From contig NZ_MTSD02000006.1 of the NCBI RefSeq assembly GCF_001995095.2, positions 1 to 64,000 on the forward strand: DNA of 64,000 nt. The letters run 5' to 3'. The notes below the pieces were generated by a model. That model was not told where the DNA came from. It worked only from the letters and a program-made list of their open reading frames with translations, and did not search any database. The DNA is from Oceanospirillum linum (GTDB lineage Bacteria; Pseudomonadota; Gammaproteobacteria; Pseudomonadales; Halomonadaceae). Position numbers and translations under genes: made by a program. Positions 47,881 through 62,672 of the stretch are shown piece after piece (position 1 is the first letter of the stretch; every line of letters starts with the position of its first letter).

Positions 47881-50425
<2,545 letters not shown>

Positions 50426-50449
50426 AACGTATTCAATAGCAGGTGGATA

Positions 50450-51823
50450 ATGAAAGCATTTGAAGCAAACTTTGATGGTCTGGTGGGGCCAACTCATAAC
50501 TACAGTGGCTTGTCGTTTGGAAACGTTGCCTCCCAGAGTAACGGAGCCCATGCATCTAACCCAAAACTGGCGGCGTTGCAGGGCTTACAAAAAATGAAAG
50601 CTCTGCACGATATGGGTATGGTTCAGGGGGTACTGGCACCCCAGGAGCGTCCTGATCTGTTTACCCTGCGCCGTTTGGGTTTTACCGGTTCCGATGCTGA
50701 TGTGCTGGCGCAGGCGGCAAAAGAAGCCCCACGTATTCTGGCAGCCTGCTGTTCTGCATCCAGTATGTGGACGGCTAACGCCGCTACGGTCTCCCCCAGT
50801 GCGGACACGTCAGATGGCAAGGTGCATTTTACACCCGCTAATCTGACCAATAAGTTTCATCGCTCGATTGAGCATGAAACCACAGGCCGTATTTTGCAGG
50901 CGACCTTTGCCGACCAGAATTACTTTGCCCACCATCCGGCGCTACCGGGTGTGGAGCACTTTGGTGATGAAGGTGCGGCGAACCATACCCGTTTCTGCCA
51001 CGGGTATGGCGAGCAGGGGGTGGAGTTTTTTGTTTTCGGTCGTAGTGCTTTCGGCAGCCGTTATCCAGAACCCAAGAACTGTCCAGAACCCAAGATCTGT
51101 CTAGAACCTAAAAAGTACCCGGCCCGTCATACGCTGGAAGCTTCTCAGGCCGTGGCCCGCCTGCACGGTCTGAGTGATCGCCATGTGGTTTATGCACAGC
51201 AGCACCCGGATGTGATCGATGCCGGTGTTTTCCACAATGACGTCATCGCGGTGGGTAATCGTGACACCTTGTTTTGCCATGAGCAGGCGTTTCTGAATCA
51301 GGCGGCGGTTAAACAGCAACTGACCGAGGCTATGGGTGGCCACTTTAATATTATTGAAGTTCCGGCTAACCATGTATCCGTAGAGGATGCGGTTCAGAGC
51401 TATCTGTTTAACAGTCAACTCCTGAGCCTGCCGAATGGTCGCACCCTGCTGGTGATACCGGAAGAGTGTAAGAGCAACGAGCGGGTTTGGAGCTATCTGT
51501 CTGAGCTGGTCAATGGCAGCAGCCCGATCGATGAACTCAAAGTGTTCGATCTGAAACAGAGCATGAGCAACGGCGGCGGCCCCGCTTGCTTACGTCTGCG
51601 CGTGGCGATGAATGAAGCGGAACTGGCGGCATTCAACCCCGCCACCCGTATGAGTGATAAGCTGTTCACCACGCTGAACGACTGGGTCGAGCGCCACTAC
51701 CGTGACCGCATCGTGGACGCCGATCTGGCAGATCCTCAGCTGCTGATCGAATCCCGTACGGCTCTGGACGAACTGACTCAGATCCTGCAACTGGGTTCTG
51801 TGTACCCGTTCCAGCGGGTTTGA
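50450..51823 (+). CDS. astB: N-succinylarginine dihydrolase
   Basis: Amidinotransferase-fold hydrolase that splits N2-succinylarginine into succinylornithine, CO2 and ammonia, second step of the pathway. The N terminus [21 protein letters not shown] and the catalytic-region blocks HNDVIAVGN (His) and [13 protein letters not shown] (Cys) are intact. The 457 residues exceed the usual ~447: an insert with three copies of a P-E-P-K-type hexapeptide (about residues 206-222) lies in front of [19 protein letters not shown], encoded by an 18-bp tandem repeat. It is in frame, so the enzyme is probably active. The operon terminator follows. Confidence 0.95.
51065..51115 (+). repeat. 18-bp tandem repeat inside astB
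   Basis: Three copies: 51065-51082 and 51083-51100 differ at one base; 51101-51115 is a diverged partial copy. Each unit encodes a six-residue Pro-Glu-Pro-Lys-x-Cys-type peptide. Being a multiple of three, gain or loss of a unit keeps the frame. Confidence 0.9.
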
Positions 51824-51888
51824 TCGGTTTTACTCGAGAGAGCCCTTCTAACCCGAACGGTTGACCTTCTCTTTTTGTATGTTCTTAC

Positions 51889-51917
51889 CCCTGATCAGAA
51901 ATGGTCAGGTTTTTTTG
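51889..51917 (+). terminator. AST operon terminator
   Basis: CCTGATC-agaaat-GGTCAGG stem (one mismatch) followed by seven T, after astB. Confidence 0.75.
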
Positions 51918-51936
51918 TCGTTAAAATAAATAGCTT

Positions 51937-51966
51937 GCACTACAATTGTCATTACATTCGTAGTGC
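51937..51966. promoter_or_regulatory. operator candidate of the second toxin-antitoxin pair
   Basis: GCACTAC and GTAGTGC form a perfect 7-bp inverted repeat with a 16-base spacer, ending 12 bases before the antitoxin ATG. Ribbon-helix-helix antitoxins bind such paired sites over their own promoter. Confidence 0.55.
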
Positions 51967-51978
51967 GAGGTATAAGAA

Positions 51979-52218
51979 ATGGGCAATGTCACGTTCCGTG
52001 TTGATGATGAGCTTAAAGAGCGTTCCTATCAGGCGCTACAAGAGCTGGGCGTCACCCCTTCAGAACTGTTACGGCAAACTTTGGAATATGTCGCGGAAAC
52101 CGGTCGCTTGCCATTTAAAAAAACACTGGTGACCGATGAGGATGAGCAGATTCTGAACGAAGTGCGCGAACGCCTGAATAATCCACAACCTGTGAGGGTC
52201 AGTCTGGATGACTTATAA
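51979..52218 (+). CDS. RelB/DinJ-family ribbon-helix-helix antitoxin
   Basis: 79 residues. The N-terminal ribbon-helix-helix reads GNVTFRVDDELKERSYQALQELGVTPSELLRQTLEYVAETGRLPF, close to DinJ/RelB proteins. The acidic C-terminal tail ends VRVSLDDL. Its last bases (GATGACTTATAA) overlap the toxin start by 11 bases, the same junction as in the first pair at 17824-17834, although the first antitoxin is of the Phd/YefM family. Confidence 0.92.
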   Translation: MGNVTFRVDDELKERSYQALQELGVTPSELLRQTLEYVAETGRLPFKKTLVTDEDEQILNEVRERLNNPQPVRVSLDDL

Positions 52219-52492
52219 CCTCGACTTTGATCGTCGGGCGCTAAAGGAGTGGCACAAGTTAGGTGATAGTGTTCGCCAACAGTTTAAGAAGAAGTTAGCA
52301 GAAGTACTCGAAAACCCTCATGTGGCTGCGAACCAGCTCCGAGAGCTGGATCACTGCTATAAAATCAAATTGCGTGCTTCGGGTTATCGCCTTATTTATC
52401 AGGTTATCGATGATACGGTGACGGTCTTTGTTGTCGCGATTGGAAAACGGGAAAAAGACGAAGTCTATCAACGAGCCTCGAAGCGGCTTTAG
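52208..52492 (+). CDS. RelE-family mRNA interferase toxin
   Basis: 94 residues, gap-free sister of the toxin at 17550-17834 with about half of the positions identical by eye (MTY, KEW, QFKKKL, CYKIKLR, GYRL, YQV, GKRE, VY are shared). The basic residues and C-terminal RASKR are those expected for a ribosome-dependent RNase. It is intact and paired with its antitoxin. It convergently faces the FKBP gene. Confidence 0.93.
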   Translation: MTYNLDFDRRALKEWHKLGDSVRQQFKKKLAEVLENPHVAANQLRELDHCYKIKLRASGYRLIYQVIDDTVTVFVVAIGKREKDEVYQRASKRL

Positions 52493-52528
52493 AGTCGTTG
52501 CATCAGTCTCTTCCAATTCTTCCGCATA

Positions 52529-52903
52529 TCACTCCCGATTCAACGCTTCCAGCAGCTCAATCTCAAAAATCAGATTACTGTTAGGTGGAATCTTGTCACC
52601 AAAGCCCCGTTCGCCATAACCCATCTCGGCAGGCACCTGTAGTTTACGTTTGCCGCCGACTTTCATACCTTTTAAGCCTTCTACCCAGGCGGCGATCACT
52701 TTTTTACGACTCAGCACCACCTGGAATGGTTGGCCTTTGTCGTAGGGGTTATCAAACTCGGTGCCATCTTCCAGCCAGCCTCTGTAGTGAGCCGTCACTA
52801 AAGCTCCGCCTTTTTTTACTTCAGTGCCAGTGCCTTCAATAAGGTCTTCGATTAACAGGTGCTCGGTCATCGGCTGTTCAAGTTCCGTCATGGAGGTTCC
52901 CAT
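52529..52903 (-). CDS. FKBP-type peptidyl-prolyl cis-trans isomerase
   Basis: Single-domain FKBP of up to 124 residues. The core is visible as GGALVTAHYRGWLEDGTEFDNPYDKGQPFQVVL, VIAAWVEGLKGMKVGGKRKLQVPAEMGYGERG and IPPNSNLIFEIELLEA, with the usual aromatic pocket residues. No signal peptide, so cytoplasmic. The start is uncertain: ATG at 52903 gives MGTSMTELEQ; two further ATG codons follow within 12 residues and none has a clear ribosome-binding site. Confidence 0.93.
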   Translation of the reverse strand: MGTSMTELEQPMTEHLLIEDLIEGTGTEVKKGGALVTAHYRGWLEDGTEFDNPYDKGQPFQVVLSRKKVIAAWVEGLKGMKVGGKRKLQVPAEMGYGERGFGDKIPPNSNLIFEIELLEALNRE

Positions 52904-52983
52904 ATACTATCTGTTTTAAAAGTGTTCGCAGTTTATGTCTCTGCCGGTTTTAAGCTTGCGGGTGATTTTCCTGAAATCAATGA

Positions 52984-53466
52984 CTAACAATGTTCATCCA
53001 TCAGGGCATTCAGTGGATACCCCCGGAAAGGTTTAACCGTTGTTAATACCACATGGCTGCTTAGGTTCACCATACCGGGTAATACATCCAACAGCTGATC
53101 GTTGATTTCGTTATAGCGCATCATATCCGGTGCCACGATGCGTAGAAAAAAATCAAAGCTGCCGCTAACGGTATAACATTCCACCACTTCAGGATGGCTT
53201 TGGGCTGCGGCCTGAAATGTTCTGAATGCCTCTGTGCTTTGGTCTTTCAGGCTGACGGTGACAATGACCTCTACACTTCGGCAGATTTTTGGCAGATTGA
53301 TAGTGCTCAGGTAAGGGCCGATCAGGCCGGCTTCTTCCAGCTTTCTGACTCGGTTAAGACAGGAACTGGGCGACAATCCCACGCGGTCAGCCAGTTCCTG
53401 GTTAGTAATTCTGGCTTCTTTTTGCAAGATCGAAAGAATATTTCGACTTATCTTATCCAGTTGCAT
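52984..53466 (-). CDS. Lrp/AsnC-family transcriptional regulator
   Basis: 160 residues: N-terminal helix-turn-helix (LDKISRNILSILQKEARITNQELADRVGLSPSSCLNRVRKLEEAGLI) and C-terminal RAM/AsnC ligand domain (VIVTVSLKDQS, VVECYTVSGSFDFFLRIVAPDM). It is divergent from the third AstA homologue with a 348-base spacer, so it may control that gene or sense an amino acid for the region. Confidence 0.92.
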   Translation of the reverse strand: MQLDKISRNILSILQKEARITNQELADRVGLSPSSCLNRVRKLEEAGLIGPYLSTINLPKICRSVEVIVTVSLKDQSTEAFRTFQAAAQSHPEVVECYTVSGSFDFFLRIVAPDMMRYNEINDQLLDVLPGMVNLSSHVVLTTVKPFRGYPLNALMDEHC

Positions 53467-53814
53467 TTTATAGGTTCTTTTAGCAGCTATTACAGTTGTT
53501 TTTATTACCAGCTATACACTTTAGGTACTGATATTACCAGCTCTGTAGCGGTGATGGCGTAGTTTGCGTTTCTACTGTAGGCGGTGCAAGCTTTTTTAAT
53601 AATGCCGAATTTTATTTTGTGACCTGGAAGTTATTCTGCAATATCTGCATTTTTTTCCTGAAATCAAACAACTCATTTCGTCACTTCGAAACTAAAATTA
53701 GGGTCATAGAAGTGGCTCTTTTTATTGGGGTGCCAGCATATAACAATAGATTAAGAAACACTGTTGCCGGATCTGCTCTACCGGACAGCAGAGCTGAGAA
53801 GGAAGGGTAGGTTT
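53467..53814. promoter_or_regulatory. divergent spacer between lrp-like and astA-like genes
   Basis: 348 bases, A+T-rich, without a credible gene. The decamer ATTACCAGCT occurs twice, at 53504-53513 and 53533-53542, 29 bases apart, close to the Lrp-like gene start; it could be part of an Lrp-type site. Nothing else was recognised. Confidence 0.3.
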
Positions 53815-54882
53815 ATGTTAATTATTCGTCCATGCCAAATGAAAGATCTTGAAGATCTGATGGCACTGTCCAAAACTGTAGGACGGGGAATGACCTCTAT
53901 GCCAGCAGATCGTGAGGCTTGGCTGAAAAAGATTGAAGCCACCGAGCGCGCTTTTTCTGATCAGGGTAAAAAAGATCCGATGAGCACCTACTTTATGGTG
54001 TTGGAAGATCCGGAATCAGGTCATGTGATCGGCTCAACAGCGATCTATACGGGTATCGGTCTGGATCGCCCTTTCTACTCTTACAAAATCTCTACACTGG
54101 TCAGTAGCTGTAATGATCTGGCTGTAACCCGTCAGGCTCGTGTATTGAGCATGGTGAATGATTATACCGGGGCGACTGAAGTGGGTTCGCTGTTTGTATC
54201 TCCTGAATTCCGCAAACCCGGCATGGGGCAGTTTTTATCCCGTGCACGTTTTCTGGCGATGGCAGACTTTCCCGAGCGTTTTAGTGAAACGGTTATGGCT
54301 GAGCTTAGGGGCTGGCAGGACAAAGACGGTAATTCACCTCTTTGGGAGAATCTGGGGCGTCAGTTTTTTGGTATTGATTTTCAGGAAGCGGTCAATACCG
54401 TTGCTTTGAAAGGCACGCAGTTTATTTCTGATCTTATGCCGAAATATCCGATCTATATCGATCTTCTGCCTCAGGACGCCCGTGAGGTGATTGGAAAACC
54501 TAATGACTCTTCTGCACCTGCGTTGCATATGCTGAAAAAAGAAGGATTCCAGTTTGCCGGTTACGTAGACCTGTTTGATGGCGGCCCATCAGTTCAGTGT
54601 GCCCGTGATGAGATCCATACCGTGCGTGAAAGTGTCAAAGGCGATGTGCGTGTCAGCGGTCACGTTCAAGATGATGATGCACGCTTTATGCTGAGTAACG
54701 GTAGTGAGCAGGATTATCGTGTTGTACTGGCTCCGGCTCGCCTGGCAGCTGATGGTACTCTGCTGATTCAGCAAGCCGCAGCAGATGCGCTGTTAATGGA
54801 TACGAGCCATGACTTCAGTTCTTTACCAGTGCGCTTTATGCCGTTTGTCCAGAACCCGCATTCAGCAGCTTATGCTGCGTGA
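53815..54882 (+). CDS. third AstA/AruF-type succinyltransferase homologue
   Basis: 355 residues in the same family as aruF and aruG, but divergent: the family blocks read STAIYTGIGLDRPFYSYKISTLV, MVNDYTGATEVGSLFV, FLSRARFLAMADFPERFS and SPLWENLGRQFFGIDFQEA, and the C-terminal FDGGPSVQCARDEIHTV. ATG at 53815 is preceded by GGAAGGG; the open frame starts 17 codons earlier. It stands alone outside the operon, facing an Lrp-type regulator. It could act on another amino acid or replace the broken AruF subunit. Confidence 0.88.
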   Translation: MLIIRPCQMKDLEDLMALSKTVGRGMTSMPADREAWLKKIEATERAFSDQGKKDPMSTYFMVLEDPESGHVIGSTAIYTGIGLDRPFYSYKISTLVSSCNDLAVTRQARVLSMVNDYTGATEVGSLFVSPEFRKPGMGQFLSRARFLAMADFPERFSETVMAELRGWQDKDGNSPLWENLGRQFFGIDFQEAVNTVALKGTQFISDLMPKYPIYIDLLPQDAREVIGKPNDSSAPALHMLKKEGFQFAGYVDLFDGGPSVQCARDEIHTVRESVKGDVRVSGHVQDDDARFMLSNGSEQDYRVVLAPARLAADGTLLIQQAAADALLMDTSHDFSSLPVRFMPFVQNPHSAAYAA

Positions 54883-55113: not shown

Positions 55114-57189
55114 TCAGAAGTCGAGTTGAGTACTCACGATAAAAGCGCGACCGCTACCCGGAATACGCCCGACCGGACTTACGTCTGCGCCTCGGAAGTA
55201 GTAGTCCTCGTCCAGCAGGTTATTGATAGAAAGAGCAAGCTCAAGATCGGTACTTGTTCCAAGGTCGATGTCTCGAGCAATACGGGCATTAACCAGAGTA
55301 TAAGCCGGTAGTTTGCCGGCACTTCCGTTACTGGTCTCGCTTTCTGTGTTAGCTGCGTCACTGTAGCTTGCGTTGACGTGGGAGGCTGTCAGGCTGCCTT
55401 GCCACTGGTTTTGCTGATAAACAGCCTCTGCGCCCACTTTATGCTTGGGGGCGTTCGGAAATTCATTACCTTTGTTATCACCGCTGAGTTGTTCGGTATC
55501 CAGGTACGAGTAGCTAATACCAACTTTAAACTGTTGAGATGCCTGCCAGTCACCGGTCAGCTCGATACCTTGTGACCGTGCTTTACCAAGATTGATATAG
55601 CTGTCGCTGGGTTTGTCATATTGAATAAGGTCTTCATGATCAATCCGGAACAGGGTTATACCTGCAGCCAGGTCACGGGTTGCCTGAACTCTGGCGCCTA
55701 GTTCATAGTTCCAGGCGAGTTCATTATCAACTTCTCCGTCTTTAGTGACCTGAGCGGTTTGAACGGGAACCAGGGACCGTTGAGCATTACTGAAAATAAA
55801 CAGCTTTTGCGTTGCCTGGTAGCCTACAGTCAGTCCCGGTAGCCATTCACTGACATTGTTCTCATTTTTACTCCCCGATATGCCATCTTCATAATCCGTT
55901 TTAACAGTTTCAAAGCGAATACCGGGAGTGATTGCGAGATCACCCTGCATCAAGGTGATGGTATCACTGACGTAGGCCGCCCAAGCCTTGGTTTCGAAGT
56001 GCCAGTCCCGTACATTAGATGTACTACCTGTAGCCAGTTCCTGACGGTTGACATCGAAGTCAACGGTTTCACTCATGTAGCGTGCGCCTAAGGTAATCGC
56101 ATGATTATCTTTATGCAGTGTCAGCCGTGGCTCGGTGCCAAATACTTTAAACAGGCGGGGTGAATCTGCAATATGAGTAGAGTCCAGGGCTGGGTCCGCC
56201 CAATGGTCATCCGTACCTAGACGTTGGCCAAAGAAGAAGGTTCTGTCGGCGCTATGGGCAAAGTTACGCCACTGCAGCTCCAGTGAATCGCTGGGTGTAT
56301 ATGTCCAGGCCAGAGTGCCTCGCTGCATGTCTGCGTTGTAGTCATCATAGGGACGTTGAGATTGGGTGATATCATTTTTATAGGCTGAGGGGCTTAATGC
56401 TCCTGGCAGTTCAGCATCAACATCATAATACTGAAGTTGAGCTGATATCTCGTGATTCATGCTTGGAGTGTATCGGGCATCCAGAATCAGATTTTTTACA
56501 TCTGTGTCGGAGTGTTCTCTAGCGCCTTCACCGCTTTGCGCATTTACTTGCACTTGCATTGCCAGATCTTCGTTTACAGCGCCACCGGCACGGTAGTAAA
56601 AATCATTTAGCAGATTACCGCTATCTTCGCTGATTGTAATTTGTTCACGGATGGTTTGGGATAGCTCCTGTGGGATTTCACGTGTATGCAGGTTGATAAC
56701 ACCACCCAAGTTGTTTGGGCCGTAATGAACGGCTGCGCCGCCGCGAACAACATCAATACTTTCAATGCTTGGGAAGGTTACCGGAAAAAGGGAAACGCCG
56801 ACATTCGTGTATGGGCCAATCGCAATGGGGTAGCCATCGACTAAAAACTGTACCCGTTCACTGCGCAGTGGATTCATGCCTCTGACGCTGATGTTCGGCA
56901 ATATGCCGGTGCCTGTTTCGTCCAGCACCTGTATTCCGGGTGTGTTGCGTAGAGCATCCTCTATATTGAGGGCGCCCCGTTCATGCAGCTCTTCTTTACT
57001 GACCAGATCCCTTGAGCCCGGATAAACCTTTACTTCTTCCTTACTTGCATTGCCCAGCCAGTCGCTGGTAATCACCAGGGGAGCCAGAGTTTCACTGGCT
57101 TGGGTGGTAGAGGCCAGAGAGGCTATAAGGCACCCCGTGTATAGTGCGGTGCGTTGAAAGCGAGGCGCAAAAGATCTTTTCAGAGTCAT
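55114..57189 (-). CDS. TonB-dependent ferric-siderophore/citrate receptor (FecA-like)
   Basis: Outer-membrane receptor of 691 residues. A signal peptide (MTLKRSFAPRFQRTALYTGCLIASLASTTQA) leads to a plug domain with the FecA-like stretch VQFLVDGYPIAIGPYTNVGVSLFPVTFPSIESIDVVRGGAAVHYGPNNLGGVINL and a 22-stranded barrel ending in the usual aromatic C terminus (STQLDF). The plug follows the signal within about 30 residues, so the N-terminal signalling domain of E. coli FecA is missing. The open frame starts with a GTG at 57255; ATG at 57189 gives a proper signal peptide. Upstream lie a GntR-type palindrome and a Fur-type palindrome. Confidence 0.9.
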   Translation of the reverse strand: MTLKRSFAPRFQRTALYTGCLIASLASTTQASETLAPLVITSDWLGNASKEEVKVYPGSRDLVSKEELHERGALNIEDALRNTPGIQVLDETGTGILPNISVRGMNPLRSERVQFLVDGYPIAIGPYTNVGVSLFPVTFPSIESIDVVRGGAAVHYGPNNLGGVINLHTREIPQELSQTIREQITISEDSGNLLNDFYYRAGGAVNEDLAMQVQVNAQSGEGAREHSDTDVKNLILDARYTPSMNHEISAQLQYYDVDAELPGALSPSAYKNDITQSQRPYDDYNADMQRGTLAWTYTPSDSLELQWRNFAHSADRTFFFGQRLGTDDHWADPALDSTHIADSPRLFKVFGTEPRLTLHKDNHAITLGARYMSETVDFDVNRQELATGSTSNVRDWHFETKAWAAYVSDTITLMQGDLAITPGIRFETVKTDYEDGISGSKNENNVSEWLPGLTVGYQATQKLFIFSNAQRSLVPVQTAQVTKDGEVDNELAWNYELGARVQATRDLAAGITLFRIDHEDLIQYDKPSDSYINLGKARSQGIELTGDWQASQQFKVGISYSYLDTEQLSGDNKGNEFPNAPKHKVGAEAVYQQNQWQGSLTASHVNASYSDAANTESETSNGSAGKLPAYTLVNARIARDIDLGTSTDLELALSINNLLDEDYYFRGADVSPVGRIPGSGRAFIVSTQLDF

Positions 57190-57297: not shown

Positions 57298-57326
57298 ATG
57301 GTAGTGTCATATTGGCGCCAATGCAA
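57298..57326 (-). promoter_or_regulatory. promoter of the TonB receptor gene
   Basis: On the minus strand TTGCAT (57326-57321), 17 bases, TACCAT (57303-57298) can serve as -35 and -10. The palindrome ATTGGCGCCAAT lies in the spacer and touches the -35, which suits repression by a bound regulator. Confidence 0.4.
57311..57322. promoter_or_regulatory. GntR operator candidate, copy 1
   Basis: Perfect 12-bp palindrome ATTGGCGCCAAT in the TonB receptor promoter region. The identical 12-mer occurs again at 58070-58081, upstream of the divergent gntR-like and ABC transporter genes. Confidence 0.7.
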
Positions 57327-57333
57327 TCACTAA

Positions 57334-57348
57334 TGATAATAATTATCA
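57334..57348. promoter_or_regulatory. Fur box
   Basis: TGATAAT-A-ATTATCA, a perfect 7-1-7 inverted repeat of the kind bound by ferric uptake regulator, 12 bases from the GntR-type palindrome and upstream of the TonB receptor. Iron repression of the receptor is therefore likely. Confidence 0.75.
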
Positions 57349-57360
57349 GTATTTTGTTTT

Positions 57361-58020
57361 TCAGGGCTCTATAAGCTCTTTGTAGCTTTCTTTCCAGCGG
57401 TTCAGGTGCGTATAGATAATGGCTTGTAAGCGAACGAGGTTTTTCTCTCTAAGTGCCCTGACCATGTTGATATGGTCGTTCGCGCTGGCAAGTTGTGTGC
57501 TTTTTTTGCTCCACCCTCGATCTGCACCGCCGACTCCTCGTTCGCGCATCTCGTCCATGACCTGGTTGAGGTGAGGGTTTTTGCAATACAGATTAAAAGT
57601 TCTGTGAAAGCTGAGGTTTAAAGTCATTGCCTGCTCTGAGTTTTGCTCTTCGACCGCACTTTTAAAGTGTTGTGCGAGCCTTTCCAGCTCATCAAGACCC
57701 GAGGTGTCGATATGGTTCATTACGCGAGCGGCGGCTGCGCATTCAATAATTTCCCTGGCCTCGGTGATCGCTATCCGATCCTGGATTGAGTGTTCAATAA
57801 CACGATAGCCCTTATATGGGATGTGTTGCAGGAAGCCACTGGTGTGTAATTCGCTAAGTGCGGATCGGACGGTAAAACGATTGACCTTGAAGTTCTCCTC
57901 AATATCGATCTGTTTGAGCCAGTCTCCCGGAAGATACCGGCCTGAGCCGATGGCCTGTTTGAGTTGTTGTACAAGCTTTTGTACCGCTTCCTCAGAAAGG
58001 GATCTGTTTTGAGTGCTCAT
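57361..58020 (-). CDS. GntR-family regulator with FCD ligand domain
   Basis: 219 residues. The N-terminal winged helix-turn-helix (about 8-75) reads EAVQKLVQQLKQAIGSGRYLPGDWLKQIDIEENFKVNRFTVRSALSELHTSGFL. The C-terminal FCD domain keeps the likely metal/ligand positions: NLSFHR, NDHINM and THLNRW histidines. FCD domains often bind small carboxylates through a metal ion. It lies between the FecA-like receptor and the FecBCDE-like operon, and the same palindrome precedes both neighbouring units, so it is the likely local regulator, sensing a carboxylate such as citrate or a siderophore. Confidence 0.88.
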   Translation of the reverse strand: MSTQNRSLSEEAVQKLVQQLKQAIGSGRYLPGDWLKQIDIEENFKVNRFTVRSALSELHTSGFLQHIPYKGYRVIEHSIQDRIAITEAREIIECAAAARVMNHIDTSGLDELERLAQHFKSAVEEQNSEQAMTLNLSFHRTFNLYCKNPHLNQVMDEMRERGVGGADRGWSKKSTQLASANDHINMVRALREKNLVRLQAIIYTHLNRWKESYKELIEP

Positions 58021-58069
58021 ATGACGTTATTCCTTCTTTTTAGCTGTCCTGAAAATCTTGTCTACCAAT

Positions 58070-58081
58070 ATTGGCGCCAAT
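58070..58081. promoter_or_regulatory. GntR operator candidate, copy 2
   Basis: ATTGGCGCCAAT, identical to the copy at 57311-57322, between the gntR-like gene (start 58020, minus) and the ABC transporter operon (start 58138, plus). It can regulate both directions. Confidence 0.7.
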
Positions 58082-58109
58082 TATGGCATAATCTTGCTGT
58101 ATTAAATAT

Positions 58110-58137: not shown

Positions 58138-59073
58138 ATGAAAATTATATTCTGCCTTGTTGCTTGCTGTTTGCCGTTGATTTCTGCGACAGCCGCTGCG
58201 GTCTCCGCAACGGATGACCGGGGTGTGCGTGTTGAATTGAAACAGCCTGCTGAACGAGTGGCGAGTATCTCGACATTTGGTGCAGATCTTTTGCTGGCCT
58301 TGGGAGTAAAACCTGTGGCAGTAACCCAGTTTGGCCCTTTTGCCAAACCCGATTATCTGGCTGATCAGTTAGTTGATGTTCCTGTCATTGGGAGTCGTTC
58401 GCAGGTCAGTATGGAGATGCTTTCGGAAGTCTCTCCTGATCTAACGTTGGCCATTCGCCGATATACCGAGCAGAACGCCGAAAAGTTTAACGATATTGCT
58501 CCATATGCGGCTCTTAATCTGATTACCCTGGACGACAGTCTGCGGGCTGTATCGTTTTCTGGAGCGCTTTTGGGCCGTGACGCTGATGCCAGAGCTTTGA
58601 ATCAGGATTTTACAGCAATGCTTGAGCAGTATAAGAAAAAAGCTCCCGGTGGACTGTCAGCTGCTTTGCTGGTGACGGGTGGAGAAGTGCCTTTCACCTA
58701 TCATGATCACTTTTTAACGGCTCAATTGCTGAGCTGGCTGAATGTTAAAAATACCGGTGGCAAGCTATCGACACAGGTACAGGGACTACCTCTAGGTTAC
58801 CGTGTTCGTTTGGAGAATCTGTTACAGCAGGATCCTGATATTATTTTTCTGTTTCAAACGAATAAAGAGCGTGCTTTTACGCAGAGCCCCATATGGCCCT
58901 ACCTGAAAGCTGTTCAGGCTGGCCGCGTTTACGAAGTCGGGCAGCACTGGAAAGAAGCTGCAGGGCCAACGGCACGATCCTTAGTTTTTAAGGAGATGGC
59001 GCACCGTATATATCCTGATATTTTTCCAATGCCGACGTTACCTGAATCGATGCGTAGTAAGCGCTATAAGTAA
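58138..59073 (+). CDS. iron-siderophore ABC transporter substrate-binding protein (FecB-like)
   Basis: Periplasmic binding protein of 311 residues of the FecB/FhuD/BtuF fold. The signal peptide is MKIIFCLVACCLPLISATAAAVSA. The mature part begins TDDRGVRVELKQPAERVASISTFGADLLLALGVKPVAV, typical of the N-terminal lobe. Two TTG codons precede the ATG in frame; the ATG at 58138 is preferred. Its TAATG end overlaps the first permease start. Confidence 0.9.
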   Translation: MKIIFCLVACCLPLISATAAAVSATDDRGVRVELKQPAERVASISTFGADLLLALGVKPVAVTQFGPFAKPDYLADQLVDVPVIGSRSQVSMEMLSEVSPDLTLAIRRYTEQNAEKFNDIAPYAALNLITLDDSLRAVSFSGALLGRDADARALNQDFTAMLEQYKKKAPGGLSAALLVTGGEVPFTYHDHFLTAQLLSWLNVKNTGGKLSTQVQGLPLGYRVRLENLLQQDPDIIFLFQTNKERAFTQSPIWPYLKAVQAGRVYEVGQHWKEAAGPTARSLVFKEMAHRIYPDIFPMPTLPESMRSKRYK

Positions 59074-60065
59074 TGATTACTGTGCATAATAAAAAACGCG
59101 CTCTCTTTATTGTTACCCTGTCCGCTCTAATACCCGTTCTATCCTTGATGGTGGGCGTTGAGTTTCTGACACCACTGGATCTTTGGCAGCTTATAACGCA
59201 GGAAGGAGATCGTGTTCAGCGGATCGTCTTTTGGGAGCTGCGTCTGCCCCGTATATTGATCGCCTGTTTTGTGGGTGCTGCACTGGCAACGGCAGGAGGA
59301 GTGATGCAGGGGATTACCCGAAATGCGCTGGCGTCACCAGACCTTACCGGAGTAGTTGCCGGGTCGAGCTGTATGATTGTTATTCTAACCTCATTATTCA
59401 GTATTGATGCCCAATGGTTTCCGTTAGCAGGCATCAGTGGTGGGCTTATTGCCGGTGCTTTAACGTTTGCATTGGCCTGGAAAAATGGACTGATGCCTTT
59501 AAGGGTTATTTTAGCAGGTGTTGCTATCAGCTCTGTTTGCATTGCATCAATGACGGGGTTTCTCATTTTTTCAGGTGCGGAGGCTGGTGATCTTTTTTTC
59601 TGGTTGGCAGGTGGTATTGCCGGTCGTGGCTGGATGCAGCTTGAGCAAACCTTTGCTTGGGTGCTGATCCCGCTTTTCCTATCAATATTGTTAACTCAAC
59701 GGTTCAGGGTTTTACTGTTGGATGATGCTATTGGGCAAAGTCTGGGAATTGCAGTGTCGTTGTGGCGACTGATCTTTATGCTACTGGCTGTGATCATGAC
59801 TGCCGGAGCAGTAACGCTTGCTGGGCCGGTAGGTTTTGTAGGCCTTGTTGTTCCCCATATCACTCGAAAGCTACTACCTGAACAGTCTGTATTGTGGCTA
59901 CCCTTAAATGCTCTGGTGGGGAGTGGGCTGCTATTGGGAGCTGATATTCTGGCAAGACTGCCTATTCTGGCTCAGGAGATCCCCTTAGGAGTGGTTATGT
60001 CGCTGATAGGAGCCCCCTGGTTGCTTTGGCTACTGAAGCGTCAGTATCGGACGGGGGGCGTATGA
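59073..60065 (+). CDS. FecCD-family ABC transporter permease 1
   Basis: Iron-siderophore permease of 330 residues with about nine to ten membrane segments. The conserved LRLPRILIACFVGAALATAGGVMQGITRNALASPDLTG loop and the C-terminal GPVGFVGLVVPHITRKLLP block that contacts the ATPase are both present. The start overlaps the binding-protein stop codon (TAATG) and the end overlaps the next permease (ATGA), so the operon is translationally coupled. Confidence 0.92.
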   Translation: MITVHNKKRALFIVTLSALIPVLSLMVGVEFLTPLDLWQLITQEGDRVQRIVFWELRLPRILIACFVGAALATAGGVMQGITRNALASPDLTGVVAGSSCMIVILTSLFSIDAQWFPLAGISGGLIAGALTFALAWKNGLMPLRVILAGVAISSVCIASMTGFLIFSGAEAGDLFFWLAGGIAGRGWMQLEQTFAWVLIPLFLSILLTQRFRVLLLDDAIGQSLGIAVSLWRLIFMLLAVIMTAGAVTLAGPVGFVGLVVPHITRKLLPEQSVLWLPLNALVGSGLLLGADILARLPILAQEIPLGVVMSLIGAPWLLWLLKRQYRTGGV

Positions 60066-61087
60066 GGTTGAATATACACCGCTATAAAGTGATATATGGT
60101 TTGCTCATACTGGCGATAGCATCTGGTTTGGTCTGCAGCTTGATATATGGTGCGGCTACCCTGAGCCTGGATCAGGTGGTGCATGCGATGTTCAGCCAAG
60201 GAGGGGAACATAGTGATAGGGTTGTTTGGAATATGCGTTTACCCAGGGCTGTACTGGCGTGCCTGGTTGGTCTGCACTTCGCACTATCCGGCCTGATACT
60301 GCAAACCCTCACCCGCAATCCATTGGCGGATGCCGGTATTATGGGGATCAATGCGGGAGCAGGCCTTGCTGCTATTTCGGTTGTTGTTGGGGCGGCCTTA
60401 TTACCTTTTGGCAGTGGTATTTATTCCCAGGGAGGGCAGGTTTTAACATGGTTGCCAATAGCAGCTCTTACGGGGGGCTGTATTACAGCCATTCTGGTTT
60501 ATCTGGTTAGTGGTGCAGGGCAGATGACTCCCTTGAGACTAATTTTGACTGGCGTGATATTTGCAGCGGTGTTTAATGCTTTGGCAACAGGGTTGCTTGC
60601 TTTATGGGGGCAGGCCCATACGGAAACTGTTGTGGCTTGGTTGGCCGGTAGTCTGCACGGCCGTAACTGGTTACACCTTTGGATACTTCTGCCATGGACC
60701 GTTCTGGGTCTTATAGGCGTCGTTTTTTGCCTGAGACCACTGGAATTGATTCGGTTGCATGATGATCAGGTTCAGTGCCTTGGTGTCAATATTCGATTTT
60801 GGCGGTTGGTTGTAGTGCTGCTCGCCACTCTTTTGGCTTCCAGTGCTGTGGCTGTGGCTGGCCCGATCGGTTTTGTTGGCCTTATCGTACCCCATATTGC
60901 ACGAAAAATAGCACCGGTATCATTTAAACAACAGCTTATGCTAACGGGTGGAATTGGGGCTTTATTGGTTATGACGGCAGATCTGGTGGGGCGTGTCTCT
61001 GTAGCCCCATTTGAATTACCGGTGGGTATTCTCTGTGCCTTACTGGGTGTTCCTGCTTTTTTGTATCTTTTAAGAAAAAACCCCTGA
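60062..61087 (+). CDS. FecCD-family ABC transporter permease 2
   Basis: Second permease, 341 residues, homologous to the first: NMRLPRAVLACLVGLHFALSGLILQTLTRNPLADAGIMGINAGAGLA and GPIGFVGLIVPHIARKIAP are the matching conserved blocks. The open frame begins 12 codons earlier; ATG at 60062, overlapping the first permease stop codon, gives MRLNIHRYK and is preferred. A heterodimeric permease is the pattern of FecCD and FepDG. Confidence 0.92.
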   Translation: MRLNIHRYKVIYGLLILAIASGLVCSLIYGAATLSLDQVVHAMFSQGGEHSDRVVWNMRLPRAVLACLVGLHFALSGLILQTLTRNPLADAGIMGINAGAGLAAISVVVGAALLPFGSGIYSQGGQVLTWLPIAALTGGCITAILVYLVSGAGQMTPLRLILTGVIFAAVFNALATGLLALWGQAHTETVVAWLAGSLHGRNWLHLWILLPWTVLGLIGVVFCLRPLELIRLHDDQVQCLGVNIRFWRLVVVLLATLLASSAVAVAGPIGFVGLIVPHIARKIAPVSFKQQLMLTGGIGALLVMTADLVGRVSVAPFELPVGILCALLGVPAFLYLLRKNP

Positions 61088-61101
61088 TAAATGGATAGTT
61101 G

Positions 61102-61917
61102 ATGAGCCTGATGTTGGAACAGGTGCAGCTTGGATATGGCGGCAGCACCATTATTGAAGATATTTCGGTTGTTATTCCGGATAAAAAAATCACAACGCTA
61201 ATTGGCCCTAATGGTTGTGGTAAAAGTACTCTGCTTAAAAGCCTGGCTGGTTTGCTTAAACCTATGAAAGGGAGTGTTTCCCTTAAAGGCAAGGCACTTG
61301 AGCAGTGGTCACGAAAAGCACTGGCTTTTGAGGTTGCGATGCTGCCGCAAAAACCAACAGCACCAGAAGGAATCTGTGTTAAGGCGTTGGTGGAATATGG
61401 TCGCTTTCCATACCAAGGGATTTTGGGCGGTCAAAGCCAGAATGACAAAGATGTTGTTGCATGGGCTATGGCGCAGACAGGTATCTCGGAGCTTGCTGAG
61501 CGCTCGGTTAATGCACTGTCAGGAGGGCAGCAGCAAAGGGTCTGGATTGCGATGGCTATTGCCCAGCAAAGCCGCATATTACTTCTGGATGAACCGACCA
61601 CATTTCTGGACTGGGGGCACCAGTTAGAAGTATTGGAGTTGCTGACCAAACTGAATCTGGAGCAGGAGCTAACCGTTGTTATGTCGCTGCACGACCTGAA
61701 TCAGGCGGCTCAGTTTTCGGATCATATTCTGGTGATGGAGCAGGGGGGGCTAATTACCGAAGGCTCTCCGGCAGACGCTATTAGCCCGAAGATTCTGGCC
61801 AATGTTTTTAACGTTGATGCAGATGTTGAGATCAGAGGTAATAACCGGCCTTACTTCTTGGCAAGAGGTTCTATACAGGCTGCTGATCAGAATTTACTGG
61901 CGGGAGTTACTCCGTGA
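61102..61917 (+). CDS. iron-siderophore ABC transporter ATP-binding protein (FecE-like)
   Basis: ATPase of 271 residues. Walker A is GPNGCGKSTLLKSL, the signature is LSGGQQQRVWIAMAIAQ, Walker B is ILLLDEPTTFLDWGHQ, and the switch His is in MSLHDLNQAAQFSD. It is preceded in frame by a TTG codon; ATG at 61102 is chosen. The GTG start of the hydrolase overlaps its stop codon. Confidence 0.93.
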   Translation: MSLMLEQVQLGYGGSTIIEDISVVIPDKKITTLIGPNGCGKSTLLKSLAGLLKPMKGSVSLKGKALEQWSRKALAFEVAMLPQKPTAPEGICVKALVEYGRFPYQGILGGQSQNDKDVVAWAMAQTGISELAERSVNALSGGQQQRVWIAMAIAQQSRILLLDEPTTFLDWGHQLEVLELLTKLNLEQELTVVMSLHDLNQAAQFSDHILVMEQGGLITEGSPADAISPKILANVFNVDADVEIRGNNRPYFLARGSIQAADQNLLAGVTP

Positions 61918-62672
61918 GGGCGCTTCAGAAACGTTATCACCTTGGGCGGATCCCTTTTACGGCCTGTAAAGCAGATCCCAGGTTTTCCTACTGCCTTTAC
62001 TTGCCAGAGCGCCACTTGAAACAGTCCGATAAAAAGCTACCTTTAGTTGTGGTCGTACATGGTTCTGCAAGGACCGTTGAAAGTCTTAGGGACGGCTTCA
62101 TCGAGTTTGCGGAGAAGGTGCATTGTGCTGTTCTGGCACCGCTTTTTCCTAAAGGGGCTGTTGCTCAGGATGAGGGTGACGGCTATAAGCTAAGTTCTCC
62201 TGCCTCATTTCCTTATGATCAGATTCTCTTAAGTATGGTTGATGAGGTATCGACCACTTATATGGCCCAGAATACCTTCTGTCTTTATGGCTTTTCCGGG
62301 GGCGCACAGTTTGCTCATCGGTTTGCATACCTCCATTCTGAAAGATTAGAGGCTTTATCAATCCATGCTCCCGGGGGATGCTCTTCGATTCATCATAATA
62401 TAACAGAAGAGAAACTCTCTGCTCTCAGGGCTACGCCAGTTCAAATGGTTGTTGGTGAGCGGGATACGCTTAGCCATACTCTGAAAATATGCCGAAAAAG
62501 CATGCTGGAGTCGTTATGTGAGCAGTGGCGCAGCAAGGGGATCTCTGTCGACTTTAAAATTGCAGCACACATTGATCACGATGGGTTTGCTCTTTTATCC
62601 CACTGCTTTGATTTTTTCAGTGAACATATATCCTCTGCAGATGCGTATGTGGAGCATGTGCGAATGGCCTAG
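61914..62672 (+). CDS. alpha/beta hydrolase in the siderophore operon
   Basis: 252 residues with the alpha/beta-hydrolase fold: oxyanion-side VVVVHGSART, nucleophile elbow GFSGGAQFAHR (Ser about residue 126), acid in VVGERDTLS and His in AAHIDHDGF. No signal peptide, so cytoplasmic. The start is GTG at 61914, overlapping the ATPase stop codon by 4 bases. As last gene of a siderophore uptake operon it could split an ester siderophore or a related ligand inside the cell to release iron. It is not visibly close to Fes or IroE, so the substrate is open. Confidence 0.75.
   Translation: MRALQKRYHLGRIPFTACKADPRFSYCLYLPERHLKQSDKKLPLVVVVHGSARTVESLRDGFIEFAEKVHCAVLAPLFPKGAVAQDEGDGYKLSSPASFPYDQILLSMVDEVSTTYMAQNTFCLYGFSGGAQFAHRFAYLHSERLEALSIHAPGGCSSIHHNITEEKLSALRATPVQMVVGERDTLSHTLKICRKSMLESLCEQWRSKGISVDFKIAAHIDHDGFALLSHCFDFFSEHISSADAYVEHVRMA

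Follow-up and report, generated by a model that had tools for sequence, protein, structure and literature searches.

A conserved palindrome as the probable operator of a GntR/FCD regulator at a siderophore-type uptake locus of Oceanospirillum linum

VanR of Caulobacter crescentus is an FCD regulator of vanillate genes, and its operator is ATTGGATCCAAT. The palindrome considered here, ATTGGCGCCAAT, has the same ATTGG..CCAAT half-sites around a 2-bp centre, although this centre is AT in the VanR operator and CG here. PmiR of Pseudomonas aeruginosa has a role in the 2-methylcitrate pathway. The structure of PmiR (PDB 7xp0) is the best sequence-profile match of the regulator of the present locus among solved structures (E 9e-26), and the two proteins share a fold (Z 19). 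Another described system is Atu1419 of Agrobacterium fabrum, a VanR-group FCD/GntR repressor. The available part of its report (PMC7797058) describes a GntR-FCD architecture in which Asn137 and three His residues hold Zn and Arg45 reads a guanine in the palindrome. According to the same part, this palindrome is short, has two or more copies among the promoters of the regulator's own gene and of its targets, and governs a repression that is relieved by a small metabolite (PMC7797058). The architecture, the Asn and three His residues and the arrangement of the palindromes are all alike in the locus described below, and the relief by a metabolite resembles the mechanism proposed for it. Atu1419 differs, as far as the available text goes, in its 10-mer ATGTATACAT, its effector N5,N10-methylenetetrahydrofolate and its targets in hydroxycinnamate catabolism (PMC7797058). 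The two regulators are also distant from each other, with a VIA-align Z of 16 to 17 and about 20% identity.

The window, that is, the whole stretch of 64,000 nucleotides of O. linum that was analysed (contig NZ_MTSD02000006.1, positions 1 to 64,000), carries a receptor gene on the minus strand, a first palindrome, the gntR gene on the minus strand, a second palindrome and the plus-strand genes of a binding protein, permeases, an ATPase and a hydrolase (58138-62672; Table 1). The initial annotation had noticed an identical palindrome on either side of the gntR gene and had read it as the operator of the GntR/FCD protein. Both copies of ATTGGCGCCAAT are indeed exact; they lie 759 bp apart and have in common a flank of just two further bases, on the left side. 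Site 1 is located about 120 bp upstream of the likely ATG of the receptor (57189, minus). Site 2 precedes two start codons, that of gntR (58020, minus) by about 50 bp and that of the binding-protein gene (58138, plus) by about 57 bp. The presence of two sites suggests coordinate control of receptor and transporter, and the position of site 2 upstream of gntR as well is the layout of an autoregulated repressor. Spacings of 820, 836, 921 and 822 bp separate the two sites at the related loci L062, L063, L071 and L077. DNA looping between the sites was considered by analogy with the Atu1419 tetramer and is not claimed, the spacing being mostly the length of gntR. Elsewhere in the window (48812-54882), there are genes that we take, from their translations, to be like those of the arginine succinyltransferase (ast) pathway, including a dehydrogenase, a dihydrolase and a succinyltransferase.

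Table 1. Coordinates of genes, putative operators and candidate promoter elements of the locus in the window
Feature	Position	Strand	Remarks
TonB-dependent receptor, FecA-like, without N-terminal signalling extension	55114..57189	-	
Candidate receptor promoter A	57298..57326	-	-35 TTGCAT (57326-57321), 17-nt spacer, -10 TACCAT (57303-57298)
Putative operator 1, ATTGGCGCCAAT	57311..57322		Receptor upstream region; comparable position conserved at related receptor genes
Fur-box-like sequence	57329..57347	+	16 of 19 against the consensus; 0 of 200 mononucleotide shuffles reach the score
Candidate receptor promoter B	57336..57364	-	CTGAAA, 17 nt, TATTAT; 9 of 12; from consensus scan
GntR/FCD regulator, 219 aa, proposed repressor	57361..58020	-	Pfam PF00392 and PF07729 above cut-off
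Candidate ABC-operon promoter	58064..58092	+	-10 CATAAT (58087-58092); 17-nt spacer starting with operator 2
Putative operator 2, ATTGGCGCCAAT	58070..58081		Between divergent gntR gene and ABC operon; autoregulatory placement usual in related loci
Siderophore-type periplasmic binding protein	58138..59073	+	Pfam PF01497
FecCD-family permease 1	59073..60065	+	PF01032
FecCD-family permease 2	60062..61087	+	PF01032
FecE-like ATPase	61102..61917	+	PF00005; NF008409 302.6 bits, below cut-off 375
Alpha/beta hydrolase, proposed siderophore hydrolase	61914..62672	+	35% identity to the L051 hydrolase

The regulator comprises an N-terminal GntR winged-helix domain (42.2 bits for PF00392, cut-off 27) and a C-terminal FCD domain (70.3 bits for PF07729, cut-off 24.3). 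Its AF2 model has a pLDDT of 90.2, and FCD proteins match it over the full length, with Z scores of 22.3 for McbR, 21.1 for AlkR (VanR), 19.3 for PmiR and about 17 for Atu1419. Seven helices follow residue 78 in the model, the last two being one residue apart, whereas six are characteristic of the VanR group; among the structure matches are FCD folds of both groups. The residues N135, H139, H183 and H205, which make up a metal site of Asn and three His by sequence, are invariant in a 47-row alignment, as are R48 and R52 of the recognition helix. By analogy with the Asn-His-His-His set of Atu1419, metal-assisted carboxylate sensing can reasonably be expected of this protein. The regulator is apparently an unpublished member of the VanR group of FCD regulators.

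Fifteen perfect 12-bp palindromes were counted in the window, and ATTGGCGCCAAT is the only one that is repeated. Some repeated perfect 12-bp palindrome, of whatever sequence, appeared in 8 of 200 dinucleotide shuffles of the window, and the 12-mer itself occurred once across all 200. The repeat on its own is modest evidence (about 4%); since chance repetition is not very rare, a comparison with other genomes was needed, and it is placement and conservation that make the case. A genome scan, which the initial annotation had proposed, returned two exact copies only in 3,779,673 bases, both of them at this locus. Eight more sites have one mismatch, and a reversed control pattern gave seven sites at no more than one mismatch. 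Exact copies anywhere in the genome were found in 100 of 201 family genomes versus 16 of 201 for the reversed control, so that the sequence alone, present in about half of the genomes of the family, does not define the site. The genome-wide rarity of the 12-mer was dropped as evidence for the same reason, and placement near gntR was used. In the literature, the 12-mer was found in a mannosidase paper, and the matches listed for the VanR-like 12-mer concern nearly all unrelated eukaryotic subjects and in one case Caulobacter.

The comparison of orthologous loci, by which the initial annotation wanted its reading to be judged, came out in its favor. Relatives of the regulator were found in 201 family genomes at 1e-8, and all 13 closest non-self relatives (28-36% identical) carry the palindrome, 12 as exact copies and one as the centre variant ATTGGTGCCAAT. 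The palindrome is absent from the loci of the next six relatives in this family search. Within the genus, a close relative of the regulator exists in two (G421 and G440) of the five other genomes searched and is absent from three. In O. beijerinckii and O. sediminis, the palindrome and the relative of gntR adjoin a different type of receptor (22-25% identical). When 390 genomes of the order were searched at E 1e-20, the window's own gene alone was recovered, despite the inclusion of 17 other family genomes, and a single-protein search of genome contigs found no close regulator orthologues. The outcomes of the order and family searches indicate that the regulator is patchy, the order search being a different sample with fewer candidates scored.

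Loci in named genomes were collected by an alignment-based scan, of which the best 80 of 154 candidates were considered. The scan was anchored on the wing motif [ILV]EH[VI]P[NYH][RK]G[YH], and it therefore sampled the clade with a bias; many of its loci are from Bosea and Rhizobium, and the 80 are not independent events. An exact or variant palindrome lies within 300 bp of gntR at 69 of the best 80 of 154 loci; 58 of these copies are exact, nine are centre variants (TA in six, TG in two, CA in one) and two are edge variants. Among the 11 loci that remain of these best 80 of 154, six carry an exact copy farther from gntR within the locus and five have none (L064, L065, L066, L072 and L123, the last on a 5.3-kb contig). 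At L064, L065, L066 and L072, which belong to Niveispirillum and Sphingomonas, the wing motif is kept and the palindrome is absent, and a check for other palindromes nearby found short, unshared ones only. Exact copies at the best 80 of 154 loci number 59 in 95 kb near gntR versus 7 in 1.16 Mb of flanks, where they represent the six far-site loci and a second Advenella copy at a hydrolase gene. The exact near copies in the same set span 16 named genera, including Nitratireductor. Regulator relatives with the palindrome are 28-46% identical and come from Oceanospirillum, Moritella, Halomonas, Bosea, Rhizobium, Advenella and others; the putative regulator-operator pair occurs in Alpha-, Beta- and Gammaproteobacteria. 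A tandem of two different GntR/FCD genes was observed in Devosia (L060, 7974-9347), with an exact palindrome about 3 kb upstream.

The control loci were free of the palindrome. Even the loose pattern [AT]TTGGNNCCAA[AT] was found at none of 31 loci of other FCD regulators, a set composed of 25 class-search hits and six lower family-search hits, in which all of L140-L164 are counted and a few loci are cut by contig ends. The loose pattern is also absent from the loci of all seven related binding proteins; five of these loci, covered over about 19 kb, were searched by tblastn and contain no gntR. Four of the seven are syntenic orthologues with receptors 59-61% identical to that of the window, whereas the receptors beside gntR genes are at most 52% identical to it. 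The palindrome, being kept beside gntR with unlike receptors and absent at close receptors without gntR, follows the regulator and not the receptor. A 108-row tree of regulators places all site-bearing rows in one 85-row clade (support 100/98), to which none of the 23 control rows belongs; L012-L020 (eight duplicate named loci and the unique L018), L149, L151, L152 and L154 (class loci without full flanks) and L161-L164 were left out of this tree. Of the many exact copies outside the known loci, nine were examined, and eight of these are inside called ORFs, one of the eight being only 19 bp past a non-ATG start. The ninth copy, in the Rhizobiales genome G950, adjoins another GntR gene of the regulator clade (L176, 3925-4671), the second in this genome and 30% identical. 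Genes for a hydrolase and a solute-binding protein are nearby, as are neighbours that, from the protein starts, are presumably hydantoinase-like. The copy was found by a pattern search and is a small blind test of the regulator-operator pairing.

The promoters of related receptor genes give some indication of how the sites might work. Eleven promoters were compared, from Oceanospirillum, Moritella, Terasakiispira and Halomonas-type genomes, and L091 was used in the Fur test only. TTGCAG or TTTACAG directly precedes the palindrome in 9 of the 11, and a TATGAT or TATCAT hexamer follows it after 4 nt in 8, the other three being those of Marinobacterium, Moritella and the window. The genomes are for the most part related to one another, and the count of 11 overstates independence. 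Most of the related receptor promoters thus look like sigma-70 promoters whose 16-17-nt spacer is filled by the palindrome. The receptor promoter of the window is ambiguous. Candidate A was drawn by analogy with the relatives, has a weak -35 that operator 1 overlaps together with the spacer, and was not picked up by the consensus scan, which found three sites in the region versus a shuffle mean of 1.2. The scan favours candidate B, the -10 of which lies inside the Fur-like box, and operator 1 would then be located just downstream of the transcription start; both layouts would suit a repressor. The candidate promoter of the ABC operon has a very weak -35 and was missed by the consensus scan. 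A Fur-like box (14-16 of 19) occurs within 100 bp of 10 of 12 receptor-promoter sites versus 0 of 12 sites in other, non-iron contexts, and the receptor sites of L059 and L062 have no strong one (11 of 19). No strong Fur-like box was detected at 58070, where the best score, 13 of 19, was reached by 15 of 200 shuffles that kept base composition but not dinucleotides. With the palindrome between likely -35 and -10 hexamers near a Fur-like box in most relatives, ligand-relieved repression on top of Fur is likely.

Judged by its distribution at 13 of 13 nearest relatives and 69 of the best 80 of 154 loci, with controls at 0 of 31 and 0 of 7, ATTGGCGCCAAT would very probably be the operator of the GntR/FCD regulator, as the initial annotation had read it, and would control both the receptor and the transporter units. 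Direct binding of the regulator to the palindrome appears almost certain. Repetition by chance, leaving two functionless copies, can practically be disregarded: repeated palindromes of this length do arise in shuffles of the window (8 of 200), but the palindrome is conserved next to diverged regulators from several proteobacterial classes and missing from the controls, which does not agree with it. The palindrome could also be the site of another DNA-binding protein, found near gntR through a common uptake locus, and the presence of the exact 12-mer in genomes without a detected close relative of the regulator speaks for this. Such an origin is nonetheless very improbable, because none of the seven related binding-protein loci, of which five were found to contain no gntR, carries the palindrome, gntR relatives beside quite different genes do have it, and the nine outside copies examined are inside ORFs except for the one beside a second GntR gene.

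The sign of the regulation is less firmly indicated. The regulator probably represses rather than activates, and relief of this repression by a carboxylate ligand is fairly likely. An activator or dual regulator, silent without ligand and recruiting RNA polymerase with it, would explain why the window promoters fit the consensus poorly, a common trait of activator-dependent promoters, and some FCD regulators are dual. This alternative is improbable, since a dimer bound between the likely -35 and -10, as in 8 of 11 related promoters, should block the polymerase and since a site is usually shared with the promoter of gntR itself, as for autoregulated repressors. If the protein is a repressor, a GntR/FCD dimer would dock on each palindrome, within or next to the core promoter, and block RNA polymerase at the receptor gene, the ABC operon and gntR itself. 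Binding of a carboxylate ligand in the metal-centred FCD pocket would lift the repression, the ligand most likely being the imported iron carrier or a piece released by the hydrolase of the operon. Fur would add control by iron at the receptor promoter.

The nature of the imported substrate was approached from the uptake proteins. FecA is the nearest solved structure of the receptor (E about 1e-88), which scores 376.5 bits against an NCBIfam equivalog cut-off of 1100 bits for FecA. The FecA residues that hold citrate are kept only in part, a hand count giving two Arg kept, one position uncertain, and Gln changed to Lys and Asn to Ser. The binding protein reaches 61.8 bits against the NCBIfam subfamily cut-off of 320 for FecB, and its best-scoring solved structures are YfiY, SirA and HtsA, which we take to be binders of carboxylate siderophores. 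A FecB-type binding protein is found at the Moritella locus (384.7 bits, cut-off 320), and that of Marinobacterium is just below the cut-off (318.5). The closest receptor orthologues, 59-61% identical, adjoin IucA/IucC genes on the same contig in three of four family genomes; the corresponding loci L054-L057 hold orthologues of both the receptor and the transporter of the window, and the genome without an IucA/IucC gene is G381 (L056). The L055 cluster, the one of these that was annotated, encodes a PLP decarboxylase and an HpcH aldolase besides two IucA/IucC proteins. No IucA/IucC genes were found in the genome of the window, which is 98.5% complete. From these neighbours, and from the lack of such genes here, we propose an inducible uptake of a foreign citrate-type siderophore. 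Among the iron-type genomes with gntR, IucA/IucC occurs somewhere in 5 of 12 and is absent in 7 of 12, so that loss of synthesis is not a rule. A citrate-type siderophore not made by the cell may be the ligand, with a probability that we would place a little short of even. The hydrolase is proposed as the enzyme that cleaves the imported siderophore. Its family recurs beside the same regulator and operator in peptide-ABC, non-iron clusters; no hydrolase was seen in the other iron-type loci read, and a role in ligand release is unsupported there.

The operator and the repressor could be as described and the ligand simply plain citrate or ferric citrate, a cytoplasmic sensor then replacing FecI/FecR signalling. 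FecA as the best solved relative of the receptor and the FecB-type binding proteins, above the cut-off in Moritella and just below it in Marinobacterium, are in line with this. So is the finding, in the available part of the report on Atu1419, that a relative FCD protein holds citrate, although this is a fortuitous ligand that does not affect the binding of DNA (PMC7797058). We consider plain citrate unlikely, given a receptor far below the FecA cut-off, a binding protein that is weak for FecB and best matched by YfiY, SirA and HtsA, and the adjacency of the closest receptors to IucA/IucC siderophore genes in three of four genomes.

In many relatives, the regulator and the palindrome are associated with uptake clusters of peptide type or amino-acid type and not with iron genes. 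In Bosea, Chelatococcus, Roseobacter-type genomes, Advenella and Pseudomonas, the pair is found at clusters of a hydrolase, a peptide-type ABC transporter and a C45-like protein, the label C45 being our assumption. Clusters of this kind with the same regulator and operator were noted at L067, L099, L102, L105, L116, L119 and L124; the L067 copy of the C45-like protein has no Pfam match. In Rhizobium mongolense (L125, 3771-8567), a Pfam scan identified, beside the pair, genes for M20 and M28 peptidases and for a binding protein of amino-acid type. The regulator and operator occupy similar positions at L122, L126, L129 and L133, the Pfam scan having covered L125 only. At six Rhizobium-type loci the centre of the palindrome is TA instead of CG. 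The putative operator is fixed while its cargo changes.

A wider meaning can be proposed tentatively. A widespread pair may have been recruited once the receptor was no longer tied to the synthesis of a siderophore, so that a cytoplasmic FCD sensor would allow inducible uptake of carboxylate siderophores of other organisms, layered on Fur; we lean somewhat against rather than for this scenario as a whole. If it is true, an FCD sensor would stand in the place of a sigma/anti-sigma pair, an AraC-type regulator or a two-component system, and a non-producer could induce the capture of a foreign siderophore once this has been sensed in its cytoplasm. The same pair would govern elsewhere the uptake and hydrolysis of amide- or ester-bearing compounds, and the effector may therefore be a shared hydrolysis product. 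In the other branches, the clusters of a peptide-type ABC transporter, a hydrolase and a C45-like protein would be marked as one ligand-controlled unit. The literature, subscription papers aside, contains among the matches listed no report of this operator, of an FCD regulator for such an uptake system or of such an intracellular route of induction. A group of regulators for which no described target was found gains an exact putative operator over a wide range of Proteobacteria, and its regulon becomes readable from genomes.

Compared with described operators and uptake systems, the locus combines familiar parts. A survey of operators, as far as its available part goes, describes palindromes with a 2-nt centre and frequent divergent operons that hold the regulator gene, as in the window. 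The common boxes given there are TKGT/ACMA, whereas those of the window are TTGG/CCAA, and the strings siderophore and CCAA are absent from the main text of the survey. A possible likeness to vibrioferrin/staphyloferrin-B-type systems, including a vibrioferrin-type (PvuA) receptor, consists in the linkage of the receptor orthologues to IucA/IucC, with binding-protein and transporter genes. Unlike the window, these IucA/IucC-linked orthologous loci have neither gntR nor the palindrome. The receptor and transporter families are the same as in FecA-FecBCDE of Escherichia coli. The receptor aligns from its residue 38 with residue 115 of the 774-residue FecA chain and thus has no signalling extension, and no fecI or fecR gene was recognised by eye beside it among the ORFs of the window. 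In this locus, a cytoplasmic FCD protein stands where FecI and FecR of E. coli would act.
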